Positions 1,290 through 27,357 of a stretch of 28,068 nucleotides of DNA are shown one piece after another. Origin of the DNA: Acanthamoeba castellanii str. Neff (lineage: Eukaryota > Discosea > Longamoebia > Acanthamoebidae); assembly GCF_000313135.1 (NCBI RefSeq), contig NW_004457616.1, forward strand, positions 1-28,068. Direction: 5' to 3'. Position 1 is the first letter of the stretch, and every line of letters begins with the position of its first letter. The translations under genes and the position numbers were made by a program. The notes under the pieces are model-generated. The model had not been told where the DNA came from, did not search any database, and saw only the letters and a program-made list of their open reading frames with translations.

Positions 1290-2505
1290 TCACACCAACT
1301 TGGAGGCGAGGTACTGCTGGAAGCGCTGTGCGTACATGGACGGCTCGACTGCAGAGAGCTGGTTCTGGCACCATCGCACACGCACCACCGCACACGCACA
1401 CGCACACGCACACGCACACGCACACGCACACGCACACGCACACGCACCATAAGAGTTGAGCTTCGTCTGACGAATCTGTAGAAGATCTCAGGGTGGTGGT
1501 TAGTACCTGAGCAAAGAGGACGCCCTTGATCTTGGCCTCGCACACCTTGCGCAGGGTCCACGGCTGCATGAGGTCGATCACGCCAAAGTAGTACAGCTCC
1601 CTCTCCTCGTGCAAACCGCCATCGCCGCTCCTGCACAGCAGCGGTAGAGTCAGACCACCACGCGCGCGCCTGTGACCGGGGTAGCAGACGCCGTGGCCCG
1701 CGGACGATAGACCACACGACATACCGAGCAAGCACGCCGCCGTCGTGAAAGTGGATCGGGCCGCCTTCTTCCAGCTCTCGCCTGTCCGGTGGTCGGTGAG
1801 TTGCCTTGTCTGACACACGACACACACGACACACACGACACACACGACACACACAGGAATGCGATAGCCACGCACTTCTGTAGGGCAAGCAGTTCGTCGT
1901 GGGTCATCTTGTGGATGCCCACGAAGAAGCTGTAGTCCATGATCCCGCACGATTCCAAGAACTGTTGTCACGCGTGCGCGCTTTGTGTGAGCGCCGCGCA
2001 TGGTCGCGGTGTATCACCCTCAGTGTGGGGGGGGGTTGGTACGTCACCTTGCAGTCGTGGGCCAGTTGCTGTAGCACACTGCTTCGCAGTGGACCCAGGT
2101 ACAGGCTCCGCCCCAGGAAGTCCTGGTCTCTAATTCACAGCCGTGAGCTCGCGCAGAGCAGGGCGAGAAGGGAGAGCAGGGAAAGAAAAACCGTAGCGTT
2201 CGCGAGGCATCGTTGGTGGCGGTCAGTCGGCCCTCCACACAGCCCTGGGAGATGACGCGGTGGAGGTGGCGGTGGAGCGCAGTGTGCGTGGGAAGGTGGA
2301 CGACAGACAGCGGTGTGGTGTGTGGTGGTGGGAAGGGTGACGCACCTTGAGGTCGTACCGCAGGTGAATGGGTCGCTCGGGCGACGAGAAGACGTGGGCC
2401 ATCACCACGAAGAACTCCCGCCCCTCGTCCGTCTGTAGCGAGTGGAGCCCTAGAAATTTGCACAAGAGCGTCGACTTGTGCTTGTCCACGTGCTGGCCAT
2501 TCGAC

Positions 2506-9027: not shown

Positions 9028-10129
9028 CAAAATCGAGATGGTTGGTTAGCCTCGCCACCCAAGAGCACAGCGAATGCTACAAAGGTGCATACCGGTGGGT
9101 TTGAGTGCCACGGGGGCCGATGGGGTGGAGAGCGGGGGCCGACCGGCCGGCGGCGGGGCGGCGACGGGCGGCCTGGCAGCGGCCTGTGGCGTGCTCGGCG
9201 GACCACCACTGCTACCAATTGGCGGCCGGGAGGCGGCGACGGGAGGCGGTGCGGCGTATCCCGACACTGCGCGAGGCGACGGGGCGGCCGAGGCAGAGGA
9301 AGACAGGGGAGGCCGGCTGCCGGCAGCCGGGGGCGGCGGACCGCCGGCCGAACCGCCGATGCCAGAACCGCCGCTCGTGAGGCCGGGCCGAGCGACTGCC
9401 GAGGGCGCCGGCGGACGCGCACCGCCTTCGCAGGAGAGACGATAGAGGGGAGAGGAGAGGGCGGTGAGCTTGGGCGGCGAGGGCGATGACAAGACCCACG
9501 GCGTGGCCGTGCAGCGGTGGAACAGTGAGACAGAAGTGGGGAGTGTACCAGGGGACTGCGGGGAGGGGGCAGCGCCGGACGCTGTTGATTGATTGATTGG
9601 TGTGACACAAACACCAGATTGGTGGGAGTGTCAGAATACCTCACAGATCGGGAGATCAAGAAGAGTTCGGGAGGGCGAGGAGGATGGAGCGCAGCGAGAA
9701 TTGATTCTAAAGAACGAAAGCGGTTGATTGATGGGCTGGCGCGTACCGTAAGCTGATGTGGGCCTAGCACCAGCCACGGCGCCGTTCGGTCGAGCTGCGC
9801 CTGCGCCTAAAGAAAAGACGTAGTGAGCCACGAGCTGAATTAATGTAATTTGGCGTAGATGCCACACAACAATTGGGATGGGGCATACCGCCAGGCACAG
9901 CGCCAGGCGCGGGGGCGCCTCTTTGTTCGGCAGCGGTGATGAGCTGGACGTAGGTTGCAGGAAGGTATCCCACCTTTCCATTCAATTCGCCCGCCCACCA
10001 ACCATTGTCGAATTGGCTGGTAATGTTGATGACGTCGCCCGCCTTGAAGGAGAGCTGGCGCTGCTCTGCGTTACCCGCGAAATCGTAGAGGGCTCGCCCC
10101 TTCGAGATGGTTCTAGCAGCTTGGCTCAT
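8840..10129 (-). CDS. SH3 domain adaptor with proline-rich linker
   Basis: Exons 10129-9889, 9806-9747, 9425-9093 and 8973-8840 join exactly in frame to 255 residues. The SH3 domain is residues about 10-65: ALYDF, the acidic/aromatic RT-loop region, DNGWWAGEL with the ligand-binding Trp, and LPATYV in the usual P-x-x-Y position. Next comes a Pro/Ala/Gly-rich linker with many PPP and RPP runs (GGPPPPAAGSRPPL, ARPPVAAPPPAGRPPL), which could bind SH3 or profilin partners or the protein's own SH3. The C-terminus is an amphipathic helix (DADIKELDQLLSKLQNDVID). The domain order suggests a cytoskeletal or endocytic adaptor; the partner is unknown. A candidate extra exon at 9706-9640 was left out because it breaks the phase. 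Confidence 0.85.
8978..9028. repeat. (CA)n(GA)n compound microsatellite in an intron
   Basis: CA repeat passing directly into GA repeat, in the last intron of the SH3 gene, next to the acceptor of the final exon. Confidence 0.85.
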
Positions 10130-10554
10130 TCCGTTGTGTATGTGTTAATTGATGATTTAAATCGAGGGAGGCTGCAGCGGAGGGGTGAAGGCAGCAGAAA
10201 GAATTGGCTGGCGATGAGATGAGGGGATCGAGAGAACAATCAAACAACAATCAAGTAAATCAGCTCAGCGGCTGTCCAGCAAAACAAGGGTCACCCTTGC
10301 CACCCAAGCAATTCGCGTTGCCATAAACGGCATTGGCGGGCTGGAATGCGCAGCTACATTCTTCCCATTCCTCCGCTCGTTGCCTGGCAGGTTGGCTAAA
10401 CTGCGTGCGTGTGCGCGTGTGCGCGTGCGGTGATACATTTAGTGTGCGTGTGTTGCAAGATTGCATTGCAGATGATGATGCTGATACGAATGAAAAAATG
10501 AAGAAGAGGCTTCGCGACGAGGCCGGACCTCTCTCTCGTTGTTGGGGTAGTTGT
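10130..10554. other. Intergenic region between SH3 gene and DHX8 gene
   Basis: About 425 bp, upstream of the SH3 gene and downstream of DHX8 on the minus strand. It contains a short GTGCGC-rich stretch (10405-10432). A long plus-strand frame starts here at 10333 but is an antisense shadow of DHX8. No gene was recognised. Confidence 0.5.
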
Positions 10555-13500
10555 TCAGCCGCGCCTCTTGCTGAGACGCCAGGCGTTGGGCTCGCGGTAC
10601 TTGTCGAAGAGGGGCTCGACCTTCTCCTGGCGCTTGCGCTTGGAGAGCTTGGTCGGGTCGGAGACGCGGTAGAACTTGGGGGCGAACTCGACGAGCCACT
10701 TGGGTTCGATCATGAGGACCTCGCGCATGTACTCCTTGGTGGTGAGGACGAGCTCCTGGTAGATGACCCACTCGGGGTTCTTCTGGAAGAGGGCCGACGA
10801 CGGGTGGATATATACAGGCTGGCCCTCGGTGAGGGTCTTGTAGCCCTCCTGGGGGTCCTTGCGCGCGGCGTGGGCGAAGAAGCCGCTGACGATGGCCTTG
10901 CGCACGGCGCTGTAGTTCTTGCCGGCGGAGGTTACCTCCATCTTGTAGCGGTCCATGATGGTGAGAAGCTGCTTGCGGATGTCCTGGGCGCGACGCATCG
11001 ACCGGGCCTGGATGAAGTTCTCGTAGCACCACGGGTTGGAGAAGTTGTTGCTCTTCCACGCCTCGTAGACCGCGAGCAGGGTGAGGTGGTCGCCCTCGAC
11101 CTGGTGGAACTTGGCCTTCTTCTGGTCGGCCTGCGCCTGCTTCTCCTTGGGTCGGTAGAAGACGTTCTGCACCGAGAGCATGGCCACCACCGTGAGGATC
11201 TCGTCGGCGCAGCCCAGCTCGACCGACGTGATGAGCATCTTCGAGAGCTGCGGCTCCAGCGGGAACTCGGCCATCTTGCGCCCGAGGCGCGTGAGCAGGC
11301 CCTCCTCGTCGAGCGCGCCCAGCGAGTAGAGCTGCTCCATGGCCACGATCAGCGTCTGCACCGGCGGCGGGTCCATGAAGTCGAAGCCCAGCATGTCGTT
11401 GATGCCCATCGCCTTGAGCGTGAGCACCGTGTTGGCCAGGTTCGTGCGCTGGATCTCGGGCACCGACGTCGGCAGCATCTCGTTTTTGTAGGCGCCCTCC
11501 GTGTACAGCCGGTAGCACTTACCGGGGCCTGTTCGTCCGGCACGGCCGGCCCTCTGCCTCGCGGCCGCCTGCGAGATCGGGCATACGACGAGCGAGTCCA
11601 TCCCCATCTTCGGGTTGTAGACCTTCTGCTTGACGAAGCCCGGGTCGACGACGTAGTAGATGCCGTCGATAGTGACCGACGTCTCGGCAATGTTGGTGGC
11701 CACGACCACCTTTCGCGAGCCCCTGGCCGCCGGCTCGAAGATTCGCGTCTGCATCTCGGAGGGCAGGGCCGAGTAGACGGGCAGGATGACCAGCTCGGGC
11801 ACCATCGGGCCGAGCGACTTCATTCGCTCGTAGAGGATCTGGCACGCCGTGTCGATCTCCTCCTGACCCGTAAGGAAGAGCAGGACGTCGCCGGGCGGCT
11901 CGGAGAGATGGATCTGCATGACGGTGATGAGAGCCGCGTCGAGGTAGTCGGTCTCGGGCGACTTGGTGTAGAGGATCTCGACGGGGAACGTGCGGCCGGG
12001 GATGGTGAAGATGGGGCAGTTGCTGAAGTAGGTGGAGAACTTCTCGGCATCGAGCGTGGCCGACGTGATGATGAGCTTGAGGTCGGGGCGGTTCTGCGTC
12101 GCCTTCTTCAGCAGGCCGAAGAGGACGTCCGTGTGGATGGTGCGCTCGTGGGCCTCGTCGAGCATGAGCACCGAGTACTTGGACAGATCGGGGTCGAGGA
12201 GGCACTCGCGCAGCAGCATACCGTCGGTCATGTACTTGATCTTGGTCTCCGGGCTGGTGCAGTCCTCGAAACGGATGGCGTAGCCGACCTCCTGGCCCAG
12301 GCGGCAACCGAATTCTTCGGCCACGCGCTTGGCGACGGACATGGCAGCCACACGCCTGGGCTGCGTGCACCCGATCATGCCACGCGAGGCGTAGCCGGCT
12401 TCGGCCAGGTACTGCGTCATCTGCGTCGTCTTGCCGGATCCCGTCTCGCCGATGACGACCAGCAATTGGTTGTCGTGCATGGCCTTGAGGAGCTCCTCGC
12501 GCAGCTTGAAGATCGGCAGGCTCTCGCGTTGCTCGATGATCGAGGTCTTGGTGGCCTGACCGTAGCGGGCGTTGGAGCCGCCGAGGTAGTTCTTCTTCCA
12601 CTCGGGCAGCTCGTAGGTGGGCGCGCCGATGCCGCGCAGCTCCTGGGCGATGTGACGCTCGCCGGGCTCGGGCATGGGATCTTCCCAGGGACGGTTGAGA
12701 TCCTTGGGGATGGAGTCGAGCATCTGCTTGCGCTGCTCGTCACGCAGCTCGCGTCGCTCCTTGGACAGGGCCGACTGGGTCATGGCCGCACGCTGGAGGG
12801 AGCCGTCGGGGTTGCGCACCACCTTGATCGGCGACAGCTGAATGTGGCTGAAGCGCGTCTGGCCACGCAGGAAGGGCGCCTCGACCTCGCTTAGCTCCAC
12901 CTCGAGCTCCTCCTCGTTCTCCTCGACGTTGTTGAGTACGCCGTTGGTCTCGTCGAAGCCGGGCATCTCGCGCGCGTCGACCACGCCGGCAGCGGCGAGC
13001 TGCTTCCACTCCCACTTCTCGGGCGACGACATGCGCTTGATCGGGCGGTGCGGCGTGGACTCGTCCTCTTCGGCGCGCGATCGTACCCGCACGTTGGGCG
13101 CGCTGGGGTTGTGGCTGGTGTCCTCGTCGGTCTTGCGCGGCAGCAGGTCCTTGCCCGTCTGCTGGTCGACCTCGCGCATGGTCAAGCTGACCTTCTCGCC
13201 GGCCACGCCGAGCACCTTCACTTTCACCTTCTCGCCACGCTTGATGGCGTCGTTGGCGTTGGTGAGGCGACCACCCGCTCGGATTTCGGACACGTGCACG
13301 AGGCCCTCCTTGCGGCCGCGCACGCCTTCCAGCGACACGAAGCATCCGAATTCCTTGACGGTTCGCACAGTGCCGTCGTAAATCTTGTACTTGACCGGCT
13401 CATCATCGTCTCGCGCGGGCGGCTTGAACGCTGGCCTGTCTCGATCACGGTCGCGACCGTGGCGATCGGGGCTGCGGCTCCTGCGGCTTCGATCTCGATC

Positions 13501-14052
13501 CCTCCTATCTCTATCATAATCGTCATCTCTACCTCGCCTGCCCCTATCGTCGTCCCTTCCCCTCCCGTCCCGCTCTCTGTCTCTGCTGTGATGATCTCCC
13601 CTCTCGCGATCCCTCGAAGCCGGCTCGTGATCGTCCTCCCGCTTTCGCTTTCTATCGTCTGCCACCGGAGGGACAGGCTCTTCCTCCTCAACGATCTTCA
13701 TCATGCGAGCGGCGTAGTTGTCTGGCACGGCGAGGCCAGGGAATTGGTTGGCTAGCACATTCGAATGGGCCGCAGCCACTTGCGCAGGGGCCGCACTACC
13801 CCCGCTCTGCGCCTTCGATGGCTTCATTCGCTGGATGATGTGGAAGAGCTTCTCGACCAGAACCTCGGGAAAATCGGCTCCATTCTCGGACAGCGCCCCC
13901 GAGAAGGCAGGCAGGGTGGGGTTCTTTTCCGCGATGTCGACGATGAATTCGGCCAGCACCTTGTCGCTCATGCCCGCGCCGAGGTGGTTCTCCAGCTCTG
14001 TGCATATCTTCGACACCAGCGACAAAAGCTGAAGCTTCTCTATTTCGTCCAT
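10555..14052 (-). CDS. DHX8: DEAH-box RNA helicase DHX8/Prp22 (spliceosome mRNA release)
   Basis: ATP-dependent helicase that releases spliced mRNA from the post-catalytic spliceosome. A single uninterrupted frame gives 1165 residues (human DHX8 is about 1220). Order: N-terminal helical segment (1-110), an arginine/aspartate RS-like region (about 125-205), an S1 RNA-binding domain (about 222-297; [19 protein letters not shown] and GLVHVSEIR), a linker, RecA1 with Walker [11 protein letters not shown] (about 533), DEAH (about 631) and SAT (about 661), RecA2 with [20 protein letters not shown] and [12 protein letters not shown] (about 829), then the winged-helix/ratchet/OB C-terminal region. 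The S1 domain plus RS-like region identifies DHX8/Prp22 among DEAH helicases. ATG at 14052 chosen because the protein then begins with the conserved DEIEKL(Q)[12 protein letters not shown] region; the frame upstream (to 14424) has no such similarity. No introns, unlike nearly all neighbours. Confidence 0.96.
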
Positions 14053-14715
14053 CCTTCGCCACAGACTAATGCAATTCGAAACGCAGATGCGCAGGCAAGT
14101 GCAGAAAATAATTGGCGAGGAAAAGGTGGCGAAAAAGTTTTTTACTCCTGACATTCCGGGAATTTGTCCACATTGTCGCACACGCAACCACCGCGAGCTG
14201 ATGGGCGCGTGAGCGATGCAGAGGGCGCAGGGCAAGGTCGATCGACTGCTAGCTTGGTCGTACGCAAGCACCAGGTCTTGTGTCTGCCCTGGACCATGGT
14301 CTGTGCCGAGCGGCCCGCACAAGAGAACAAAGCCATAAAAGGCAAAATGCTGTGAGATACCCTTCTCAACTCCACCAGCATGCACGTTGGCTTCTCTCTG
14401 TCTTTTTGTGTCCGGAGCTTGCACGATTATTTTCGGTCACTTCTCGCCACTGATCACATCATGCTCTTTGAAGAATCCGCAGGCGGACCACCACGGCCTC
14501 AGCTTGGAATTCCTGACGTGAGGTCACCCCCTCGTAACGATTAGATGACGCTGACGGTCTGGTATCGAGACCCTGTGCAACCCGAAAGCCGACATTCTGG
14601 GCCGGAAGCTGGCTGTTCCTTCTGTTTCTTCCTCCTGCTGTGCCAGCAGCTGCCACCTCGCGATTCCTTCCTTCTCGGCCGCGCACGAACGGCCGTGCCC
14701 TCGACGCGCACTACC
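14053..14715. other. Intergenic region upstream of DHX8
   Basis: About 660 bp, divergent between DHX8 (minus) and the small plus-strand membrane ORF. Short frames on both strands have no recognisable domains. It probably holds the DHX8 promoter and 5' UTR. Extension of the membrane ORF to an upstream in-frame ATG at 14545 is possible. Confidence 0.4.
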
Positions 14716-15726: not shown

Positions 15727-18700
15727 TCATGTGCTCGTTGACTTGCGTTCGTAGCGGTAGGCGATCAGCTCGAAAGGCGCGTCTGCACGCACAGACCACC
15801 ACGCAACTGATCAGACCTATCCACGACAAACCACACGGGGAAGACGCTGGTTTGACCCGGGGGGGGGCACCTGTGGGTCGATCAGTCACACCCAACACCA
15901 GGGAGAGTTCTTGGCCTTCCTGCAGCGTTTGCGTGGCTCCCCTGCCGACAAGGACCTCGTTGATGTAGGTGCCATTGGTACTGTTTGTGTAGTTCACGAT
16001 TGAACCGCGTTAGTATGTTGTCTCTGAGACGCTTGGGTGGTGGTGGGTGGTGGTGTGTGAAGGTACCTCGTATCCTCCACGACCACCTCGAAGCTCGGGT
16101 GCTTGAATTGCTTCAAGTGCTGCGGATTCTTGCGGTAGCAACGCACTCCGTACCTGTTCCGAGACAAGCGCAGTTTGGGTGAGAACGGACATCGACCGAC
16201 CGACCGAAACCAAACGGAGAGCAGACGAGGCACACGGTCTGCGGACGTAACGTACCTGCACTCTGGCGCCCCATCGCTCGGCGACAGCTCGAGCGACGGC
16301 GTGTCGTTGCTCTCGTCACCTTGCGAGGCAAGGAGCAATCTTCGTTGCACGACAGAGACTTTGCAGTGCTTGGTACTAATATGTGTATTCTTGAATCGGC
16401 AGGCGGGGTGGCAAGTCGAGTGTCGGCCCATCAACACACCTGAGCTCACGCACGCACGGTAAATCACACACACAACACAACGAGCGTAAGACACGCTCAC
16501 CAGACTAGGTCATGGAGCGAGCAGCGGGTCGCACCGTCTTCGGGGATGGCCACACTCTTGAACTTGGGGTTGAGGGAAACCAGCTTGCCAAACTGGCCGT
16601 ACTCCTCTTCCTCTTCCTCCTGACGATCGCCTGCAGTCATCGCGCGTCAGCTTGTTTGAGGCCACCACATGAACACATTGGGCCACACATGAAGCAGTGG
16701 GTGGGCATACCGGCGCCGGGCCTGCTTCTGGAGCTGTGCTCGCTGCGCTTCTCCGTCTTCTTATTCCCCTGCTCACTCGTGGTGTGTCCCCGCTCCTCCC
16801 CACGGCTTCTTCGCTTGGCGCCTGCGGCCTGCTCCCTCTTCGTGCCCTCGTCTTCGTCCACCATCTTCCTCTTCTTCGACTTGGCGGGCACCACCCCGAA
16901 TCCTGCAAGTGTAGACGCCCACGACGCAGTCTCCTGTCAGGCCACACGCGCAGCAAGGCGAGGGATCGTGTGTGTGTGTGTGTGTGTGTGTCATCGGTAC
17001 CGGGCGACTCCTCGTCTTCAAATTCAAGCGGCGGCGTCGGTTCGTAGACTAGCGCATCGACCAGCGTGGGCGTCTCTTGGATGGCGGCCTTCTTGTTGCT
17101 GTTCGTCTTCTCCTTCTTCTCCTTCTTCCGTTTCTTGTCCGTGTTCTGCTCCTCCAGGAGGCGAGCCAGCGACGAGGCGCCCAAGCTCGTGTCCAGCTGC
17201 GTGGGCTGGCTGTCGATCTGCGTCGGGTTGTCGTCGGTCAGCGTCGGCGGCAGGCCCGCGCCGCTGCTGCCCAGCAGGTTAAAGGCGGGGAGGTCGGCCT
17301 GGGTGGGTATCGAACCCAGGCTCTCGCCCTCAGTGTCCGACAGCACGAACATCGAGAGGTCCATCTGTGTCGACGTGTTGAGCGCGTCGACCTGCGTCGG
17401 TGCGCGCATCAGCGACGACGGCGGGTCCTCCTGCGTGGGTCCCATCAGCGACGAGTCGAGCGAGCCCGGGCGCAAGCCCTTCCTCTTCTCCTTCTTCTCC
17501 TTCTTCTCCGCGTTGTTCTTCTTGCTAGCCGCCTTCCAGCTGCTCGAGGCATCGTCTTCATCCTCGTCATCCTCGTCTTCTTCGTAGGCGCCGCCCTTGA
17601 CGTAGTCGTCGAGATAGACTTCATCGTCTTGCGTCGAGGTGTCGAGCAGCAGTAGCGACGTGTCCAGCGATGTGTCCTCCTCGAGCGCCTTCCCCTTGGG
17701 CTTGAGGCCTCCCGCGTCGCCGCGCCATCCCTTGCGCATGGGCGAGGCGCAGGGCGATGGCGGCCCCAAGTTGCGCCCGCGGCCGCCAGACCTGAGTCGA
17801 ATGGGACTGACCCCGCCAAGCAGGCCTCCGTCGTCGCTCTGCGTGGGTCGATGGAGGAGGTCCGAGCTCTGGCTGATGTGGCACCGGACCTCGTCTTCGG
17901 TCTGCGTGGGCTGGCCCAGCATGGCGTCGAGGTCGTCGTAGGCCACCGACGAGTCGCCCTGGGACTGGGACTGCGACAGCGACGGCGACGACGAGATGAG
18001 GTCGGTTTGCGTGGCCTGCGACATCAGGCGCCGCCACTGCGACGCCGTCGGTCCGGTGGTCGTGGTCGAGCTGGACGAAGCGAGCGCAGCCTTTGCCTTC
18101 TTCGCCTTGTCCGCCCGACGCTTGCGCTTGCCGGTGGTGCCTGGCGACGACGGTGACGACGGCGCCACGGGCGACAGAGCCCAGGGCGACCGCGGCGCGC
18201 CGCCGTCGTGCTGCGTGGGCGAGTCCAGGTGGCGGAGGTACGAGTGCTGCGGCGAGGGCGTCGTGGGCGAACGCGGCGGAGTGGCGAGCGGCGACGACGA
18301 CGCGGACAGCAGCGGCATCGGTGAGTCCGACTGCGTGGCCTGGTCGAGCAGCAGGTGGTACGGGTTGGGGCTGAGCGAGGGCGAGCGCGACGCCACCACC
18401 TCGGCCTTGGCCCGCTTGGTCTTGGCCCGGCCGCGTGACGATCGTCGCGGAGAGTGGTCCACCTGGGTGGGCAGCTCGTCCAGCTGGGTGCTGGTCGCCA
18501 GTAGCGGCACATCGAGCTGCGTAGGCAGCTCCTCCAGCGCGCCGGCGCTGCTGGTGGTGGTGGTTGCGCCCGACGCGGGTGCCTTCTCGACTTCTTCCTC
18601 CTCTTCCTCCTCTACTTCGTTGGCCTTGGCGACCGCCGCGAGGTTGTTTCTTCGCCTATTGAGCATGGTCTTCAGTCGGCCACCGCCGACCTGAGCAGCT

Positions 18701-19068
18701 GCTGTAGGCTTCGTTGTGTCGCCCGCTCGGCCCTCGATGGCCTTGATCATGTTCTCTGGCCGCTTGGTGCTGGGCTTCGGTGCAGGCTTCTTCGCGACCT
18801 CTTCTTCTTTGTCTTGGTCTTCCTCCCCCTCCTTTTCCTCGCCTCGAGGTTTGCTGCTCGCTTCTGGTTTCATCTCCTCTTCTTCTTGCTCTTCGTCCTG
18901 CTTGCCCTTCGACTTCTTTTTCGCCCGCTTTGCCCGAGTGTTGGCAGCATTTGAAGATGTCGCCGCTGCTTTAGGTTTGCTTTTGCTGGTCGCCTCTTCG
19001 CGCTTCTTGGGGACAGCACTCCTCATCCAGGGCAGTTTGCGCGTGGTCGCCACCACCGGCTTATCCAT
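15727..19068 (-). CDS. TQxD-repeat protein with C-terminal FHA domain containing a PBZ zinc finger
   Basis: Probable DNA-damage signalling scaffold. Exons 19068-17001, 16902-16711, 16630-16535, 16439-16256, 16153-16067, 15980-15892 and 15782-15727 sum to 2772 nt, exactly 924 codons, with every phase matching. Residues 1-165 are basic/acidic and disordered. From about 183 to 670, 14 TQxD motifs (TQLD, TQVD, TQSD, TQHD, TQTD, TQDD, TQED, TQMD, TQAD, TQID), one TQTE and two TLxD variants lie in Ser/Pro/acidic linkers with Lys-rich patches. The C-terminal FHA domain (about 763-920) begins FGKLVSLNPKF and has MGRHS (R791), ISTKHC (S807, H810) and STNGTYIN (N878), so the phospho-Thr-binding residues are kept. 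Between the latter two sits a C-x5-C-x6-H-x5-H PBZ finger (C846, C852, H859, H865; YGVRCYRKNPQH). Closest concepts are MDC1, Rad53/Chk2 and APLF; orthology is not claimed. Confidence 0.9.
16968..16991. repeat. (TG)n microsatellite in an intron
   Basis: About 12 TG units in the first intron of the FHA gene (17000-16903), close to its donor. Confidence 0.85.
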
Positions 19069-19182: not shown

Positions 19183-19425
19183 ATGTCGTCAGGCGCTTTG
19201 GGCGTGGCCTGCATGGCGTGTCCAGTGGTGCGCAGCGATGACGAGCCGAGCTTCCTGTGCACCGCGGCCGAGGCCCTGCTTCACTGGCGCGCAGCAGCTG
19301 AGTTCAAAGACGTGCTGGCCAGGGCCACACACTTTGGCGTGTGGCAGCACCAGACGCAGCGCGAGGTGCGCAACGGCGAGCAGGTGTCGCTGTTCCTGGT
19401 GTCGGTTGTGGAGGTGACCAATTGA
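19183..19425 (+). CDS. Unrecognised 80-residue protein, or first exon of a gene split by the copia element
   Basis: The frame runs from MSSGALGVACMACP through SFLCTAAEALLHWRAAAEFK and ATHFGVWQHQTQREVRN to LFLVSVVEVTN and a stop. GC-rich, codon-like composition and balanced amino acids suggest real coding sequence; no family was recognised. The last codons overlap a GTGACC donor-like site (19420), so this could be only a 5' exon. Beyond the retrotransposon, plus-strand host sequence near 23021-23080 (LTRAFDKFVDTLRAMCAVV) and 23166-23331 (FDHVCDCPICMVRLPHV) also looks exon-like, so one host gene may span the insertion. That link is inference. Confidence 0.4.
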   Translation: MSSGALGVACMACPVVRSDDEPSFLCTAAEALLHWRAAAEFKDVLARATHFGVWQHQTQREVRNGEQVSLFLVSVVEVTN

Positions 19426-19681: not shown

Positions 19682-20669
19682 TTATACTGGAAACTGGAGG
19701 AGACAAAGAAGGTCATTCTGCTTGATGTGAGGGAGAGCCTTCATTAGAATGTTGGCCAGCATTGTGGTTGTTGGTTCATGCTTGAGGGTGATGAGTCCTT
19801 TGGTGATCATGTCATGGACATGATGCAGTTTGATGTTGTAGTGTTTGATTCTTGAGTGGAACATGGTCTGCTGCTGGTTGGCAATCATGATTGTGCTCTG
19901 GTTGTTGTTGCTCTGGTTGTGGTTGTGATTGTGCTCAGATGATTGGGTTGGACTGGTCAATGTTGAGGCTGATGAAGAACTTGTGAACATAGATCACTTG
20001 CTTTGTTGCTTCAGAAATTGAGTTGAATTTGGCTTCAGTGGAGGAGAGAGTGACAGTGGTCTGTGTCTTTGAGGTCCACATGATGGGTCCTCCTGTGAGT
20101 AGGAAGAAGTAGCTGGAGATGGACTTGTGGTTGATTGGGTTGGCTCCCCAGTCCATGTCACAGTACCTGATCAGGATGAAGTCAGTCAGAGAGATGGAGT
20201 CCAGTCGCCTGTATGTGATGGCCAGATCTCAGGTGCCCTTGAGGTAGTGTAGGATGTGTTTTGCTGTGGTCCAGTGTGTGTTGTTGAAGGACACCATGAA
20301 GCAGGAGAGGTAGCTGACAGTGTATGCAATGTCTGGTCTCAACACAATGGCAATGTAGAGCAGCTTGCCAATGATTTGGCAGTATGGTATCTTGTCACTC
20401 AGTGTTTCACTGTTGTTGAGTGTGAGTCCAACCTCCATGGGTGTGGTTGCTGGGTTGCAGTTGCTCATGTTGAATGTCTGCAGGAGCTTGTTGATGTGTC
20501 CATGTTGGTGGAGTTGCATGAGTCCATCAACATGGTTGTAGTTGATCTTCATGCTGAGGATTGATGTGGCAGCACTGAGGTCCTTCATGGTGCACTTGTT
20601 GGATAGAATCTTCTTGATGGTGTTGATGTCATTGGGTTTGGTGATGATGAGGCAGTTGTCAACATATAT
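19682..20669 (-). pseudogene. Copia RT (C-terminal half) and RNase H, degenerate
   Basis: RT fragment begins at the active-site strand, here YVDN instead of the usual YVDD, then LIITKPNDIN, MKDLSAATSILSMKI and HILHYLKGT. A stop (TGA) follows LKGT in frame. RNase H has DMDWGA (catalytic Asp), SSTEAKF (catalytic Glu) and, in another frame, SRIKHYNIKLHHVHDM and ANILMKALP near the end. The frame changes between about 19990 and 19935. The enzyme is inactive on several counts. Confidence 0.85.
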
Positions 20670-20972
20670 AACTTGTGGTCATTTGAAATGAGAGGTCACA
20701 AATGACTGTGGAATTTTTGTTGTGCTAAAATCTCCATTCCACACTGATAAAATCACTTTTAACTCCACAAATTCCAAGTTTTTATGAAATCATTTTCATC
20801 TCAAGTCCCTCAATATCACTTATAAGCAGCGGTCTAGCATGTCAAAATCACACATGCAGATCAAAATCTTCAAAACTGACCTGTAAATCAAAAATGTCAA
20901 ATCTCACATGATTTTAGCACAACAAAAATTCCACAGTCATTTGTTACCTCTCATTTCAAATGACCACAAGTT
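20670..20972. mobile_element. 303-bp fold-back (MITE-like) element with 63-bp terminal inverted repeats
   Basis: Left arm 20670-20732 (starting AACTTGTGGTCATTTG) and right arm 20910-20972 (ending CCACAAGTT) are reverse complements with one mismatch over 63 bp. The interior is AT-rich without a coding frame. It sits at the junction where the copia linker (upstream on minus) meets the RT active site, with about 600 nt of expected RT coding sequence missing. No target-site duplication is visible. It is either a non-autonomous DNA transposon or a palindrome formed during a deletion. Confidence 0.85.
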
Positions 20973-20974
20973 CA

Positions 20975-22080
20975 AGGATGTCCATGATGGAGGTGTCCAC
21001 CTCCATGTGAATGGGGGACTGCTTGTTGTGATGTGAGTTGAAGGTCTGATCAATGCTGGGGCTTGTGCTGTCATCAAGGGGCACATGCACTGGTTCAGGA
21101 GTGCTGGTGGCCATGTTGTGGATGTTGTGGTTGTTGCTGGTCAGCATGACACTGGGAGTGTTGAGTGAAGGTGATGTAAAAAGACATTGTGGTTGAGTGG
21201 GAACTGGGTACCCACATGCAGTGTATTGAGGTATTGTGGGTTGGCCTGAGGTAGTGGGCCTCAACGCTGTGCAGGTCCAGCTTATTGCATTTGTGGTGGG
21301 GGAGTAGCAGGTAGGTGTGCATGCTGAATGGGTGAAGGTGACTGAGGGTGGGTACATCACCATGTAGCATCTTGTGGGGGGAGTGGTTGTTGTTGGCACA
21401 TGTGGGTGCAATTGTGGATGTGGACTGATGGCCTTGGCCCAGAAGGAGTGAGGTAGCCTGGATGAGAAGAGCATGGCCCTGGCCATCTCAATGATGTCCA
21501 TTGTACTGAGGTGTGTATGGTGGTGATGGGACATGTTCAATGCTGGATGTGTGCAGGAGAGCCTGGGTGTTGTGGCCAGTGTACTCACCACTGTGGTCCA
21601 ACTGGAGCATGTGGATGTGTGTCTCAGCTGGCAGGGAGGCGATGAGGTTGTGGAGCCTGTTGATCACCTTGCTCTTGTCCTTGAGGAAGTAGACAGTGGC
21701 ATGGCACAAGTAGTCATCAATGAAGGAGACAAAGTAGGTCTTGCCAGTGAATGAGCAAGTTGGGAATGGGCTGCAGATGTTGGACCATGTGCATGGGTGC
21801 ATTGGAGTGGGGGGCTGGGCCAGGTCCAATGGCCTTGTGGTGTTGCTTGGCCTGAATGCAGAAGGTGCTTGTGGAGGGCTTGGAGCTGGGCGCAATGGCC
21901 CTGGAGGTGGCAAGCTTGAGGTGGTTGATGCCAATGTGGCCCATACACAAGTGCAGGTGGTTGTAGGTAGTGGGGCATGGTGTGCTTGCAATGAGGGCCT
22001 GCTGAGCATGGGCCAGGGGCAGTAATGACCATAGCAGGTGCTGGATGGTGGCACCAGATCAGTCAAGGTGGATGGTGCAC
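20975..22080 (-). pseudogene. Copia integrase and integrase-RT linker, degenerate
   Basis: Integrase core has YFVSFIDDY (first Asp) and HMLQLDHSGEYTG (second Asp), then TPQYNG followed by a one-base frameshift before the helix IIEMARAMLFSSRLPHSFWA that carries the Glu. A Pro/Thr/His-rich linker follows, ending at the fold-back element. The upstream pre-integrase part is Cys/His-rich (HHAPLPTTTC) but poorly kept. Confidence 0.8.
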
Positions 22081-22959
22081 ATAAGCTGGACTAGATGGCT
22101 GGTGGAGATGAGGTTCTTCATGAGGTCCAGGATGTAGAGGACGTCCTGTAGCACAATATAGACAGTGTGGCCATTGATCAGCATGGAAGTGCAGATCTGT
22201 CCACTGCTGTGGATAATGAGGGCAGTGTTGTTGCCAAGGATAATACTATGGGTGAGGCATCTGGTGTTGAAGGAGTCAAGCCACTTGTGGTGGCAGGTCA
22301 TGTGAGTTGATGTGTGTGCTTGTCAGATGCAGGTGAGTTGTTGCTGATGAGGAGCATCTTGGTTGGTGGCTGTGTGGGTGATGGTGATGTTGGCCTGCTT
22401 GGGCGTGAGGAGGGCTGTGTGGCGCTTTGCATTGCACTGGTTGATGCTGTGGCCAGGGTGGGTGCAGTAGGTGCAGGTGAGTGCAGGGTTGTATGGGAAT
22501 TGGTGTCCTGTCTGGTTCTTCCTGTTGTTGGACTGTCTGGTGGTAGTAGATGTGGTGGCGATGTTGGCACTGCCATTGCCACACATGTGTCACTCCTTCC
22601 TCTTGGGGCGGTTCCCTGCACTGGGGGTGTTAGTGCCCTGGTTAGGATGAGTCACTGTGGTAGAGCTGGGCTGAGCAGTCAACTGGGTGGTGAAAAGAAG
22701 TGAATAGTGACTGGTGTCTGCCATGGTAGTCTTGTTGATGATTGAGGACTTGTGCTGGTGCAGTGTGGACTGTGTGAAGTTGAGTGTGACAATGGCCTGA
22801 GTGTGAATGATGGTGGCGATAGTGGAGTACAATGGTGGTAGGCCACGCAGAATAAAATGGATTGCCCATGTGGGCTTGAACTTGTAATTGTTGGTGGTCA
22901 TCTGTTTGATTAGGACATTGATCTGGTTGATGTAGCCAAGATCATCTTCATCTCCAACA
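22081..22959 (-). pseudogene. Copia gag, CCHC zinc knuckle and protease-like segment, degenerate
   Basis: Gag-like segment includes GYINQINVLIKQM and AIHFILRGLPPLYSTIATII (22600-22945), typical of copia gag. A CCHC knuckle CTYCTHPGHSINQC (C-x2-C-x4-H-x4-C) lies near 22430-22475. The following segment (NTRCLTHSIILGNN, MLINGHTVYIVLQDVLYI) matches the protease/pre-integrase region, but the usual D-S/T-G-A catalytic motif is not visible. The N-terminus of gag is missing. Confidence 0.75.
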
Positions 22960-23334: not shown

Positions 23335-26300
23335 TTACTCGTCGGTGTCGTTGATGAGCGGATTGTAGGCCAAGTCTCCGTCGCCTGTTCGCGTGAACTC
23401 GAAATAGCTCCCTCGGCTGCAACACCACCGGCGATGCCACAACGCGTCAGCACGAGCGAGGCCATTTGAGAGTAAAGTGGAATGGAGCGTGAGCGTACCG
23501 ATCTGCCTTGAGGCACAGGAGGAGGACAAAAAAACTGGGCAGGGAGAGCAGCAACAAAAAGCCGCCCAGGCCCACCAGCACCCAAAAGATAATCACCTCC
23601 GCCTTGAATCCGAGGTACAGCGAATCTGAAATACGAACACGGGGCCACATCCGTGTATGCGTTGGTGGGTAAGCGCGCACTCGTTCGGGTGATGATGGAT
23701 CGCGACGTACCCTTGACTTGGTCGGCATTGGCCTCGGTGAGGCCCGCGTACATGTGGATGTACACCACCGGGTAGATGACGTCCAAGCGCACGTCGGGGT
23801 TATAGGTGGTCATCTGGAAGTAGGTCTTCGACGGGTCCAAATAAATATTGATCTGCACCGACTCGTCGTACCACACCACTATACAGCGCCAGAAGAGAAA
23901 GAGAGGGCGGGTGAGAGAATCTTCTCGTTGCTGCGCGTCAGGTGTGCTCGGGTGAGCGCCAAGGTACCGTTTCCCGTGTTGGGCTCAACGTCAATACGGG
24001 TGATATCAGCGGCAGGATCGGGCACTTGGCCTTCGATGAGGCTGGTGTACTTGGGGTCGGCCAGGTACATGTGGGGGTTGCTGAGCATCAACGACGTTCC
24101 ATTGTGGAAGCCCGTCAGGTTGCAGAAACCTGGTGTGTCACAAATCGTTCCATAACAACAGCACGATGAGTTAGAGAGCCTCGCTTTCGCCTGATCGTTC
24201 GTGGGCGTGGCAGTACCCTGGATAGTTTGGTAGAGGGTGGCATTGATGGCCCAGGTCTCGTTTGCGAGTGTGTAGCGGATCGTATTTACTCCTCTGTGTA
24301 ACGAACCGGTCAGGAGGTTTGCTTGTAAGGCAGTTAATAGAGGGTGGGGTGGGGGTAATGCGTACTTGTGGTCCATGTAGCCCAACGGGACAAGGTGCAT
24401 GTTTCGCACGTAGTTGGAATCCCTGGTGTGTCATGTAGATTGTTGGAGCGTCAGAGTGTTAACAACATAGCTACACTGCGAGAGACCGGGAATTTGGCGA
24501 TTGTGTATTTCATACCATGACCACAGCTCGGAGTCGAGGTCGAGGAAGGGGCGGAAGAATCCCAAGTCGTTTACTCCCTGCACAGGGATCGGCTCTCTGC
24601 GCGTCATGAGAACGTGTTTCACCTGTTAGATCACTGCGACCGCAGTGGTCGGTGCAATCGGGGGGGGGGGTATCGCGTACGCGTAGACATCTTCTATGAC
24701 AGTTTGGCCGAACCACTGAGTGTAAACTTGCACTTGGTTGATGTCGTCCTTGCCCGTGAAAACCACGTCGGGTCCATGCCTCTTGCGCGCCTTCTCCGGG
24801 GTTGTTTCGTTACCTACGCTCAACCAGGGCATTATCGGTTTCCGCAGTCAGCCAGCCGACAGTAACCCGGCGTGGCGCGCAGGCACGAGACAAGGTACCG
24901 AGAATGGAAGCGTCTGGTTGCTCCGGCGAAAGCAATGCAAGCAGAGGATCGGTGTTCTCCATAAGCCTGGGCGATGGGAGTGAGATATGACCGTGGTCAC
25001 GCTGTGAGGCCCATAGGTACACACATGTGATGAAAGCGGCAGCGGGGCGTACCATTCGTCCACCGTGCGCGTAGTGAAAAGACCACCGCCTTTAGCGATG
25101 GCGTCTGCCATCACCTTGGGCGAGAACTCGGCCAACATGTAGAGAAAATACACGTAGAACTGCGGGTAAAGAGAAGGAAGCCTCGTCAGAGAGAGAGACC
25201 ATGTACGTTGACATCACAAGGTGTCGGGAGCAAACGTACCGCGTCCGCTTGGCCCTAGTTGTGCCACACACGAAGAAAGAAGTTAGCCAAGAGCGACATG
25301 GGAGGGCTGACCAGGAAGTTGTACCCTGCCGACTCCCCAGGTCTCGCGAACGTAAGTGTCATTGTAGTTTATCGGGTTGACCGTTGCTGCGATATTGTAG
25401 AGAAAGAAAACGCGTCACGTTGAGCCATTCTTGAAGGCGATGTGACTGAAAGGTTTCGTCAGTGGGAACGTACCCTGAATGAAGACGGCCAGATTCAGTG
25501 CCGAGAAGAGGCCCACCGGTCCGTTGAGCAACTGCTTGCTCTGCTCACCGACACCCACAACCAGGGAAATATCAGGCGCGCGGAATCGTTTGGAGAGGGC
25601 ACTAGGTGGGCAAGGTAATACATACGGCGTTGGCAGGAATCCGAGCGGCCGGGTTGATTCCCCAGAAGACGCCGAGTTCGGAGGAGGCCGGGAACTGGGT
25701 TCCAGGGTAGAGCGTGGTCACCGACACTCCACCAGTGACCTGGGCCGTGCCCCACTGCAGGTATGCTGCAATAGTGACCAAAACGAGCGCTCGGTTAGGC
25801 AACGTGCGATCGGGCAGCGTTTGTAAGACACGCACCCAGGTCGTTGAGCTCGGCCACATCCCATTGCTGCAGGAGTGACGGTACGACGAGGCCATCTCGC
25901 GCACGCTTGTACCAGGCAAGCAGTGCGCTCACCTGTCAAGTGTGATGATGTGGAGTGTTAGCAGCCCACACACATTGCCTTGCGACAATGATAACCGACC
26001 TGATCTGGCGTAAGTTCAAATGCAGTTCTGATCTCCTCAGTCGCATTGGCATCGCCTAAAAGCGCATGTAATCAGATTTCCCCTCCTGATGCAGGCGCAC
26101 GAGGGTAGGAGCGTGTAAGCGACTTACCGTTCAGAGCCTGGCGCCAGGTAGTGGTGGACTTCGTGTCCGTAGCGACGAGCGAGAGTGGCGTTGCAGGATT
26201 GAAGAGCATCTCTGCACTAGCCAACGAGATACCACTGAAGCAGAAGCAAAGGTGAGCTCATCGACGCGTTCGACATTCTGCGTGTTTCAGAGTGGTGTAC

Positions 26301-27357
26301 CTGGGCGCTGCGGCATCGAGTGAAACCTGCATGTAGGTCCACTCGGGCGAAATGAGCTTCGTTTGATTGGCCCAGTTGTCAAAGAAAGCGAGTGTATTGG
26401 TTCCGTTGGTGAGCTTCCCTTGCTCTTTTGCCAGCACGCCCGCCTCGGTCTGCCAAGTGCCAAGTTGTATGCGCAGCTAACGTTAGATCGAAGAACACGC
26501 TACGCAAGGAAAGGAAAGCTCGAGAGAACGGCGCACCTGGACAACCAAGTCGGGAATCCACACCTCCCACATGAAATCGAAGAACAGCTTTATAGCAGGA
26601 CCCGTGATTGCAACGGTCAGAAGGCCTTCGCCTCCGGCTTGCGAGAGTGCACCAGGGTAGGCTGGGAGAAGAGAGAATGAGCGTGAGCCTACTTTCAGAG
26701 GCCAATCCACTGCACGACAGGGTTGGGCGCGTACCAGGGTTGGTATTGACGATAACGTCGGTGTCCGGGCCAACAGAGAGCTCGGGAAGGAAGACGTAGC
26801 GTGTCATCGTGTTGTATTTGACCTTGTTGCCGCCTTCGAGCCACTCGATATCAATGAGATCCTTCTTGTTCCTGAACGGTTGCAGTTGGACGGTGAGCTC
26901 TATGTCGCACCACCGCACACGCACACATGAGGGAAAGGTATAAGCACCAGTAGACGTAGGGTCCCACTTCCTTGACGATGGGCAGTGCGCCATTGCGCAC
27001 ATCTTCGAGGTTGGTGATGTTGTAGAAGTGCGCCGCAATGTACAGCGTTGGCGCGTCGCTGGCGTACGTGTTCTGCCAGTGTTTGTAATTTGTTGCTTCC
27101 TGTGGTGTGGTTGGACGGTGTGCGTGGTGCGCAATAAATAAGAGAATTAATGTAAATAATTGCAGCAAAAATAGAGAGGGAAAGATTGAGGGCGGAGAGC
27201 GTACGGGTGAATCGATGATGACTTGGTCATAGATCCCACTCTTGATGAAATCCCTCACGCCAGCCTGTGCAAGCCAAGCGCCCCCGAAGAGAACAGCACC
27301 CAGCAAAACCGTGAGTGCTGTCACCACGAGACAGCACCAGGTCTTCTTTCGCACCAT
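23335..27357 (-). CDS. CD36/LIMP-2 (SCARB) family scavenger receptor, enlarged ectodomain
   Basis: Double-pass membrane glycoprotein family for lipid/particle binding and lysosomal membrane function. About 22 exons and roughly 800 residues (human CD36 and LIMP-2 are about 480). Exon 1 (27357-27205) has the N-terminal helix LVVTALTVLLGAVLFGGAWL. Exon 2 (27099-26948) gives FYNITNLEDV...KEVGPYVY, the family hallmark. Later come ELSVGPDTDV, FTGKDDINQVQVYTQWFGQT, GFFRPFLDLDSELW, LVPLGYMDHK, SLMLSNPHMYLADPKY, RIDVEPNTG (24409-23879 region) and the C-terminal helix IIFWVLVGLGGFLLLLSLPS. The cytosolic tail ends LAYNPLINDTDE and contains YNPL, a YxxPhi sorting motif, with a PLI reminiscent of the LIMP-2 tail, so endolysosomal targeting is likely. 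The extra length lies between SVGPD and TGKDD (apex helices). The exon 2/3 join is one nucleotide out of phase with the obvious GT-AG sites. Confidence 0.9.

Follow-up and report, generated by a model that had tools for sequence, protein, structure and literature searches.

Does a single protein of the amoeba Acanthamoeba castellanii str. Neff carry both an array of phosphorylation-dependent ligands and the domain that reads them? This question is raised by a minus-strand gene, hereafter the TQxD gene, located in the first 28,068 nucleotides of contig NW_004457616.1 (assembly GCF_000313135.1), a stretch referred to below as the window. A sequence-only reading had interpreted its product as a self-assembling scaffold of the DNA damage response, in which an array of Thr-Gln-x-Asp (TQxD) motifs would be the ligand of an FHA domain in the same chain. 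Our analysis points to a nuclear DNA-damage adaptor devoid of a kinase and of any recognised enzyme domain, with its own FHA domain among the readers of the array, a reading to which we assign a probability of roughly one half. It draws on the array, on constraints at positions +3 and -5/-4 of its sites, on the FHA motifs, on a PBZ zinc finger lodged within the FHA domain and on an identical database protein; binding, phosphorylation and localisation are predictions made from these sequences.

The array and the complete FHA domain belong to one polypeptide, as had been claimed. Splice signals, read with the frame kept, define seven inferred exons from 19068 to 15727 and a product of 930 residues, in which the phosphothreonine contacts R791, S807 and N878 fall in the FHA motifs GR, ISTKH and STNGT, in agreement with the coordinates, strand and residue numbers proposed earlier. 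Among 5.8 billion proteins searched, P0001 proved identical to the spliced model at 930 of 930 positions. P0001 bears the source label 'lgn', which we take to be Logan assemblies of public reads, and is linked to 13 contigs, the longest of 3562 bases. The match of a seven-exon gene by an uninterrupted protein of 930 residues is most simply explained by a spliced transcript; P0001 could also be an intron-aware gene prediction rather than RNA evidence, as 3562 bases could hold the 3342-base genomic locus. Whether transcript or prediction, its identity with the model speaks against separate products for the repeat exon and the FHA exons. Alternative splicing through a donor at 16500 was rejected: the acceptors tried by hand, in a non-exhaustive trial, led to a stop codon or a broken FHA domain, and P0001 fits the other model. 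A (GT)12 microsatellite occupies positions 16968-16991 of the window, in the first intron and some ten bases past its inferred donor, and changes in its length could affect splicing of this intron.

PIKKs phosphorylate SQ and TQ sites, and FHA domains bind phosphothreonine. That TQxD would satisfy the SQ/TQ rule of these kinases and a phosphothreonine-x-x-Asp rule at once is borne out by the counts, which also reproduce the earlier tally of motifs. The protein contains 16 TQ, 15 of which lie within residues 183-623 and are all followed by an acid at +3 (14 TQxD and one TQTE), the sixteenth (residue 892, TQTL) being inside the FHA domain; TLxD occurs twice, at residues 609 (TLTD) and 668. Composition statistics were computed on residues 161-700 with 20,000 shuffles. 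TQ was seen 15 times vs. 2.3 expected (shuffle maximum 9) and TQx[DE] 15 times vs. 0.32 expected (shuffle maximum 4), with an acid at +3 in 15/15 TQ vs. 5/31 Thr lacking a following Gln (Fisher 3e-8). Ser outnumbers Thr in this region, yet only seven SQ are present, one of them as SQx[DE], and Sxx[DE] falls short of expectation (3 vs. 10.5). Thr, not Ser, appears to have been selected, which fits an FHA reader, specific for phosphothreonine. SQ/TQ cluster domains (SCDs) are defined by several SQ/TQ within 100 residues, and the array, with up to nine per 100 residues, belongs to this category. The linker that carries it may be disordered, to judge from its composition and from the low confidence of the structure models. 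A cluster of TQ does not by itself entail an acid at +3: in the Rad53-like proteins P0003 and P0004, the N-terminal TQ at residues 4, 7, 11 and 14 all lack it, and of the seven TQ in these proteins a single one, at residue 362, has it. Among 123 other proteins, mostly from one helicase family and not used as evidence, 8/510 TQ carry this acid.

The acid at +3 might alternatively serve casein kinase 2 (CK2, T-x-x-[D/E]), the sites then being permanently phosphorylated; 15/15 sites fit that motif, and phosphothreonine ligands of FHA domains made by CK2 are known. Nevertheless, the preference of this kinase is for Ser and for a more acidic +1/+2, whereas the array has Gln at +1 in 15/15 sites, an acid at +2 in 2/15 and the depletion of Sxx[DE] mentioned above, which makes a constitutive CK2 array improbable. 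Still harder to credit would be an array of anchors for the dynein light chain LC8, similar to the multivalent ASCIZ platform. According to the available text of PMC6607443, LC8 favours Asp/Glu two residues past the anchor Gln, but also a mid-sized branched residue after the Gln (TQT), and dislikes a pre-anchor Pro and a charge adjacent to Gln. The residue after Gln is Thr in 2/15 sites, Val or Ile in 3/15, Asp or Glu in 2/15 and another residue in 8/15, and a Pro stands before the anchor in 10/15.

The sites share more than the four residues after which the gene is called. Leu, Ile or Met occupies position -5 or -4 in 14/15 sites, where 0.25 is expected per site (binomial 4e-8, the lowest among the offset pairs scanned), and the residue at -1 of the Thr is Pro (10 sites), Ser or Ala in 15/15. 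The extended motif, [LIM]x(2,3)[PSA]TQx[DE], provides a concrete and testable specificity for a phosphothreonine reader. Could such regularity be a functionless by-product of a repetitive Ser/Thr/Asp-rich region? Exon 1 contains many short direct repeats (16-34 bases, 62-88% identity), which touch several array motifs, as well as a 21-base tandem repeat (17190-17247, 2.7 copies, 78% matches) spanning the last two TQ sites, at residues 616 and 623, and the TLTD at 609. We nonetheless give drift the lowest credence of all the explanations considered, close to none. The counts of TQ and TQx[DE] were reached in 0/20,000 shuffles, the tandem-repeat scan found no array across the remaining 13 TQ sites, and these 13 still exceed the shuffle maximum of 4, so that the motif looks kept by selection, whatever its origin. 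Moreover, with sites spaced 7 to 70 residues apart, Thr codons (ACG 11, ACC 3, ACA 1) and flanks vary, while T, Q and acid stay. Selection on the motif would here be read solely from repetition within the protein, in one genome. In that genome (38.4 Mb, 250 contigs), two TQxD lying close together were sought at the DNA level with a pattern limited in codons and spacing; it matched three times, always in this gene, compared with one match for the reversed control.

The FHA domain is split by a PBZ finger, which the sequence-only reading overlooked together with the -5/-4 part of the motif, while its view of the array, of the FHA domain and of a kinase-less layout stood. With the insert in place, the Pfam FHA profile (PF00498) scores 29-35 bits (cut-off 20.7); removal of the PBZ stretch yields a single match of 41.8 bits over profile positions 2-66 of 67, and exons 3 and 4 alone, which encode the first FHA half, give no Pfam match. 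The finger (PF10283, zf-CCHH; E 1.1e-11, 44.9 bits, cut-off 22.7) was found on the genome strand as well as in the spliced protein and is complete, with zinc ligands C846, C852, H859 and H865, and Y848, Y853 and R854 as equivalents of the adenine/phosphate contacts of APLF, a Tyr/Tyr/Arg set named in the accessible part of PMC6264785. Among solved structures, the best match with the insert kept is an APLF PBZ (E 4.6e-12), followed by the FHA domains of Chk2, CHFR and Rad53 (E 0.002-0.004); with the insert removed, the order is CHFR (E 1e-7), Rad53 FHA1 (9e-5) and Chk2 (3e-4). STNGT is the same as in Rad53 FHA1. Alignment with CHFR has the insertion flanked by strands near the Ser-x-x-His motif on one side and near the Asn-Gly-Thr loop on the other. 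By a correspondence of our own, its counterpart in CHK2 would be the beta5'-beta6' hairpin, where a passage of PMC11639082 locates Pro152. The finger straddles the boundary of exons 4 and 5, and FHA beta6 is likewise encoded by exon 5, so that skipping of this exon would disrupt the FHA domain. Only PBZ and FHA exceed the Pfam cut-off in the spliced protein, which ends after the FHA domain; the Pfam scan revealed no kinase domain, as foreseen, no BRCT and no Tudor, and no RING match up to E 1.

These features suggest a succession of three steps. First, PARP activity at a lesion would produce poly(ADP-ribose) (PAR), and the PBZ finger, being intact, would bind PAR and recruit the adaptor, thereby constituting a separate, perhaps earlier recruitment signal. 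Second, an ATM/ATR-type kinase would phosphorylate the Thr of the TQxD sites, given the TQ context at all 15. Finally, FHA domains would bind the phosphorylated Thr-Gln-x-Asp sites. The most economical reader would be the FHA domain of the protein itself, acting in trans and cross-linking copies, and other checkpoint proteins may bind the array through their FHA domains as well. Because the beta5-beta6 hairpin should, by the usual FHA topology, lie away from the phosphothreonine-binding loops, a single PBZ-in-FHA module could hold PAR and phosphothreonine simultaneously. Precedents are found, as far as the accessible passages go, in the pTxxD motifs of Cdc45, which once phosphorylated bind Rad53 FHA1 (PMC6375734), in the dimerisation of CHK2 via phosphorylated Thr68 (PMC11639082) and in the FHA domain of MDC1, which promotes oligomerisation (PMC6858307). 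Self-assembly would be a plausible outcome. In its strongest form, which we advance tentatively and with some doubt, PAR would nucleate a phosphorylation-driven polymer, the PBZ-in-FHA module acting as a coincidence reader of PAR and phosphothreonine and the 15-site array as its own multivalent ligand; PARP and ATM/ATR signals together would then switch on a self-assembling repair scaffold without kinase, BRCT or Tudor. If its own FHA domain reads the array, the protein would unite ligand array, reader and sensor of PAR in a single chain, as a natural system of minimal size, and the rules by which damage foci assemble would become testable with a single protein in purified form, plus a kinase and PAR. 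Two damage signals wired into one module would likewise be exemplified by a zinc finger inside a loop of a beta-sandwich reader.

Candidate partners were surveyed across the genome. Potential upstream enzymes are present: five places match FATC, a mark of PIKK-family proteins, of which some may represent ATM or ATR, and 28 match the catalytic domain of PARP, four of these under the Pfam cut-off; such figures count matches at the level of exons rather than genes. BRCT matches occur at 11 places, PBZ matches at nine (the TQxD gene included, two partial) and FHA matches at no fewer than 14, a lower bound, as the split FHA domain of the TQxD gene was itself missed. An APLF-type FHA_2 match lies near a PBZ, in the same or a neighbouring frame, over the cut-off at L012, and both are just under it at L016; an APLF-like PBZ/FHA_2 arrangement is seen by eye at L010. 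The PBZ set seems expanded, as reported for Dictyostelium. No second FHA-PBZ arrangement was seen, the query having matched elsewhere only PBZ stretches and two weak places; a match at C44:1381562 that runs past the PBZ was discarded, as it contains a stop and shows no FHA reading by eye. Among 45 loci, a non-random sample, the TQxD gene (L014) was alone in having three or more TQx[DE] within a frame. The BRCT frames of L039 and L040 score almost alike, match WGR weakly and have two TQ each, both TQx[DE], and a PARP catalytic match lies on the contig of L039; these loci are a possible second protein with the motif.

Such a repertoire also leaves room for readers other than the protein itself. 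The phosphorylated array could recruit other FHA proteins, such as a checkpoint kinase or an E3 ligase, with no self-assembly, while the FHA domain of the protein would read a different phosphoprotein at the lesion. Available portions of the literature describe RNF8 as recruited by the TQXF sites of MDC1 (PMC6858307) and the Rad53 FHA domains as readers of the Rad9 SCD (PMC13067819). The 14 or more other FHA exon matches would accommodate this scheme, as would a His at the position thought to select Asp at +3 (see below). Conversely, the presence of reader and ligands in one chain makes binding in trans hard to avoid if affinity exists, and no FHA-kinase was recognised in a partial scan, in which 59/310 kinase candidates were scored, all of them more than 10 kb away from any FHA match. 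The kinase-like motifs HRDIKPEN and DFGWS do occur some 1.3 kb away from the L049 FHA, on the other strand, and DFGLA at the edge of L059. Docking of this kind, combined with a separate target for the FHA domain, is a possibility that we rate as real, if doubtful.

Returning to self-binding, a ligand in the same chain that is Thr-specific and acidic at +3 would argue for the protein's own FHA domain as the main reader, and a number of observations weigh against it. Position +3 matters more to FHA domains than -5/-4 does, and the hydrophobic residue at -5/-4, which a kinase-plus-FHA argument does not predict, hints at an extra or different reader. In the alignment, His805 stands opposite the presumed place of Rad53 Arg83. 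It is through Arg83 that Rad53 FHA1 selects Asp at +3, as stated in the accessible text of PMC4037201, and the Arg of pTxxD-selective domains of this type is accordingly replaced by His here. The proposed Rad53 FHA1-like reading of the sites hence retains the Arg, Ser and Asn contacts and loses ground on the selector and on the nearest solved FHA domain, that of CHFR. TQ 616 and TQ 623 are likely local duplicates, and part of the array may have grown in this manner. AlphaFold, given one or three sequences, produced no usable fold, with predicted local distance difference test (pLDDT) values of 24-36 over the FHA-PBZ region and means of 35.8 and 35.6. In the accessible part of PMC4030884, a single PBZ is said to bind PAR far more weakly than the pair present in APLF. 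Lastly, no orthologue was found in two protein searches with the FHA-PBZ region, among candidates limited to about 511-1627 residues, with shorter, longer or broken proteins outside this scope. The first (E <=1e-3, 581 candidates) yielded P0001 and one APLF covering 23% of the query; the second, with a slightly shorter query (E <=10, 541 candidates), listed two Rad53-like kinases (E 2.6 and 2.9) besides P0001, the APLF being absent. Two further searches were set aside: 86 pattern matches in viral_contigs, none of which was confirmed, and a three-sequence profile search of solved structures, which returned mostly Rad53 and other kinases as dictated by its rows.

The sequence-only reading also knew of no described protein that joins such an array to an FHA domain in this way. 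None combining a TQxD array, an FHA domain and a PBZ inside the latter was found among the sequences and literature searched; in the open-access literature, no paper pairing a TQxD array with an FHA domain was retrieved by word-start matching, and none reporting a PBZ inside an FHA domain was found, nesting itself not being directly searchable. The underlying principle, on the other hand, is already known: MDC1 and CHK2 self-associate through FHA domains and phosphorylation of TQ sites, PBZ fingers occur on damage proteins, and APLF and APL are scaffolds with FHA and PBZ. The PBZ set of Dictyostelium reportedly goes back to Ahel and colleagues in 2008. It includes Chk2, Ku70, Rad17 and CHFR in the accessible text of PMC5087659 and PMC4030884.

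The features of the gene and of its surroundings are compiled in the following table. The promoter region of the TQxD gene is possibly shared with the short divergent frame that lies next to its start codon.

Table. Features of the TQxD gene and neighbouring features, in window coordinates.
Feature	Coordinates	Strand	Content and basis
Array of 15 TQx[D/E] sites	17191..18522	-	residues 183-626; counts and shuffles
FHA domain, CHFR/Rad53/Chk2-like	15748..16601	-	residues 764-924 (approximate), interrupted by the PBZ insert; Pfam FHA and solved structures
PBZ zinc finger	16099..16260	-	C846-x5-C852-x6-H859-x5-H865; one intron inside; inserted in the FHA beta5-beta6 hairpin
Exon 1	17001..19068	-	start codon, basic/acidic N-terminal region, entire TQxD array; open reading frame and donor site, product equal to P0001
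Exon 2	16711..16902	-	Lys/Arg-rich linker; splice signals and frame, identity with P0001
Exon 3	16535..16630	-	start of the FHA domain; identity with P0001
Exon 4	16256..16439	-	FHA strands, then first PBZ finger residues; identity with P0001
Exon 4 residues	16425-16423; 16383-16381; 16377-16375	-	R791; H805; S807
Exon 5	16067..16153	-	most of the PBZ finger (Y848, C852, Y853, R854, H859, H865), then FHA beta6
Exon 6	15871..15980	-	FHA STNGTYIN loop with N878 (15976-15974), later strands; identity with P0001
Exon 7	15727..15782	-	final FHA strand and stop codon; identity with P0001
Phosphatidylinositol-4-phosphate 5-kinase match	1650-1967	-	just under the Pfam cut-off
SH3-domain exon	9764-10144	-	
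DHX8/Prp22-type splicing helicase	10555-14436	-	one long open frame; P0007 at 100% identity
Divergent short open frame	19186-19425	+	79 residues, no Pfam match; about 120 bases from the TQxD-gene start codon
Copia-type retroelement remains	20229-22650	-	adjoining the TQxD gene; RVT_2 match at 20229-20678; further coding-like frames resembling integrase and gag by eye only
CD36/scavenger-receptor gene(s)	23879-27357	-	several exons; matches at 23879-24430 and 26851-27357

Known systems share parts of this layout. CHFR is an FHA-RING-PBZ ubiquitin ligase with its PBZ at the C-terminus. It provides the nearest solved FHA domain after removal of the insert and has both FHA and PBZ, but the Acanthamoeba protein shows no RING, bears a TQxD array in addition and carries its PBZ inside the FHA domain. 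APLF and Dictyostelium APL similarly unite FHA and PBZ in one protein. APLF differs in having an FHA domain of the FHA_2 (PNK-type) class and tandem PBZ fingers separate from it, as opposed to a PF00498 FHA domain with one PBZ here. APL has been discussed in the literature as a scaffold in which no enzymatic domain is recognised.

Chk2 and Rad53 resemble the TQxD protein in their SQ/TQ cluster N-terminal to an FHA domain of the same class and offer a precedent for self-association between phosphorylated TQ and FHA; they differ by a kinase domain C-terminal to the FHA domain, and the N-terminal TQ of the Rad53-like P0003 and P0004 lack the acid at +3. Dictyostelium Chk2, an amoebozoan checkpoint protein that has a PBZ according to PMC5087659 and PMC4030884, is likewise a kinase. 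Rad9 and 53BP1 also possess a cluster of PIKK sites, which in Rad9 is read by FHA domains, but have Tudor and BRCT domains (PMC13067819, as far as its text is accessible), none of which was found here by the Pfam scan. Finally, MDC1 comes close in combining an FHA domain with a PIKK-type TQ cluster, and FHA-driven oligomerisation and docking on phosphorylated TQ are both known for it. Unlike MDC1, which ends in a tandem BRCT, the TQxD protein has no BRCT, and its sites read TQX[D/E] instead of TQXF, with Phe at +3 in 0/15; judging from the intact finger, PBZ would likely replace the gamma-H2AX binding of MDC1 as the means of recruitment.

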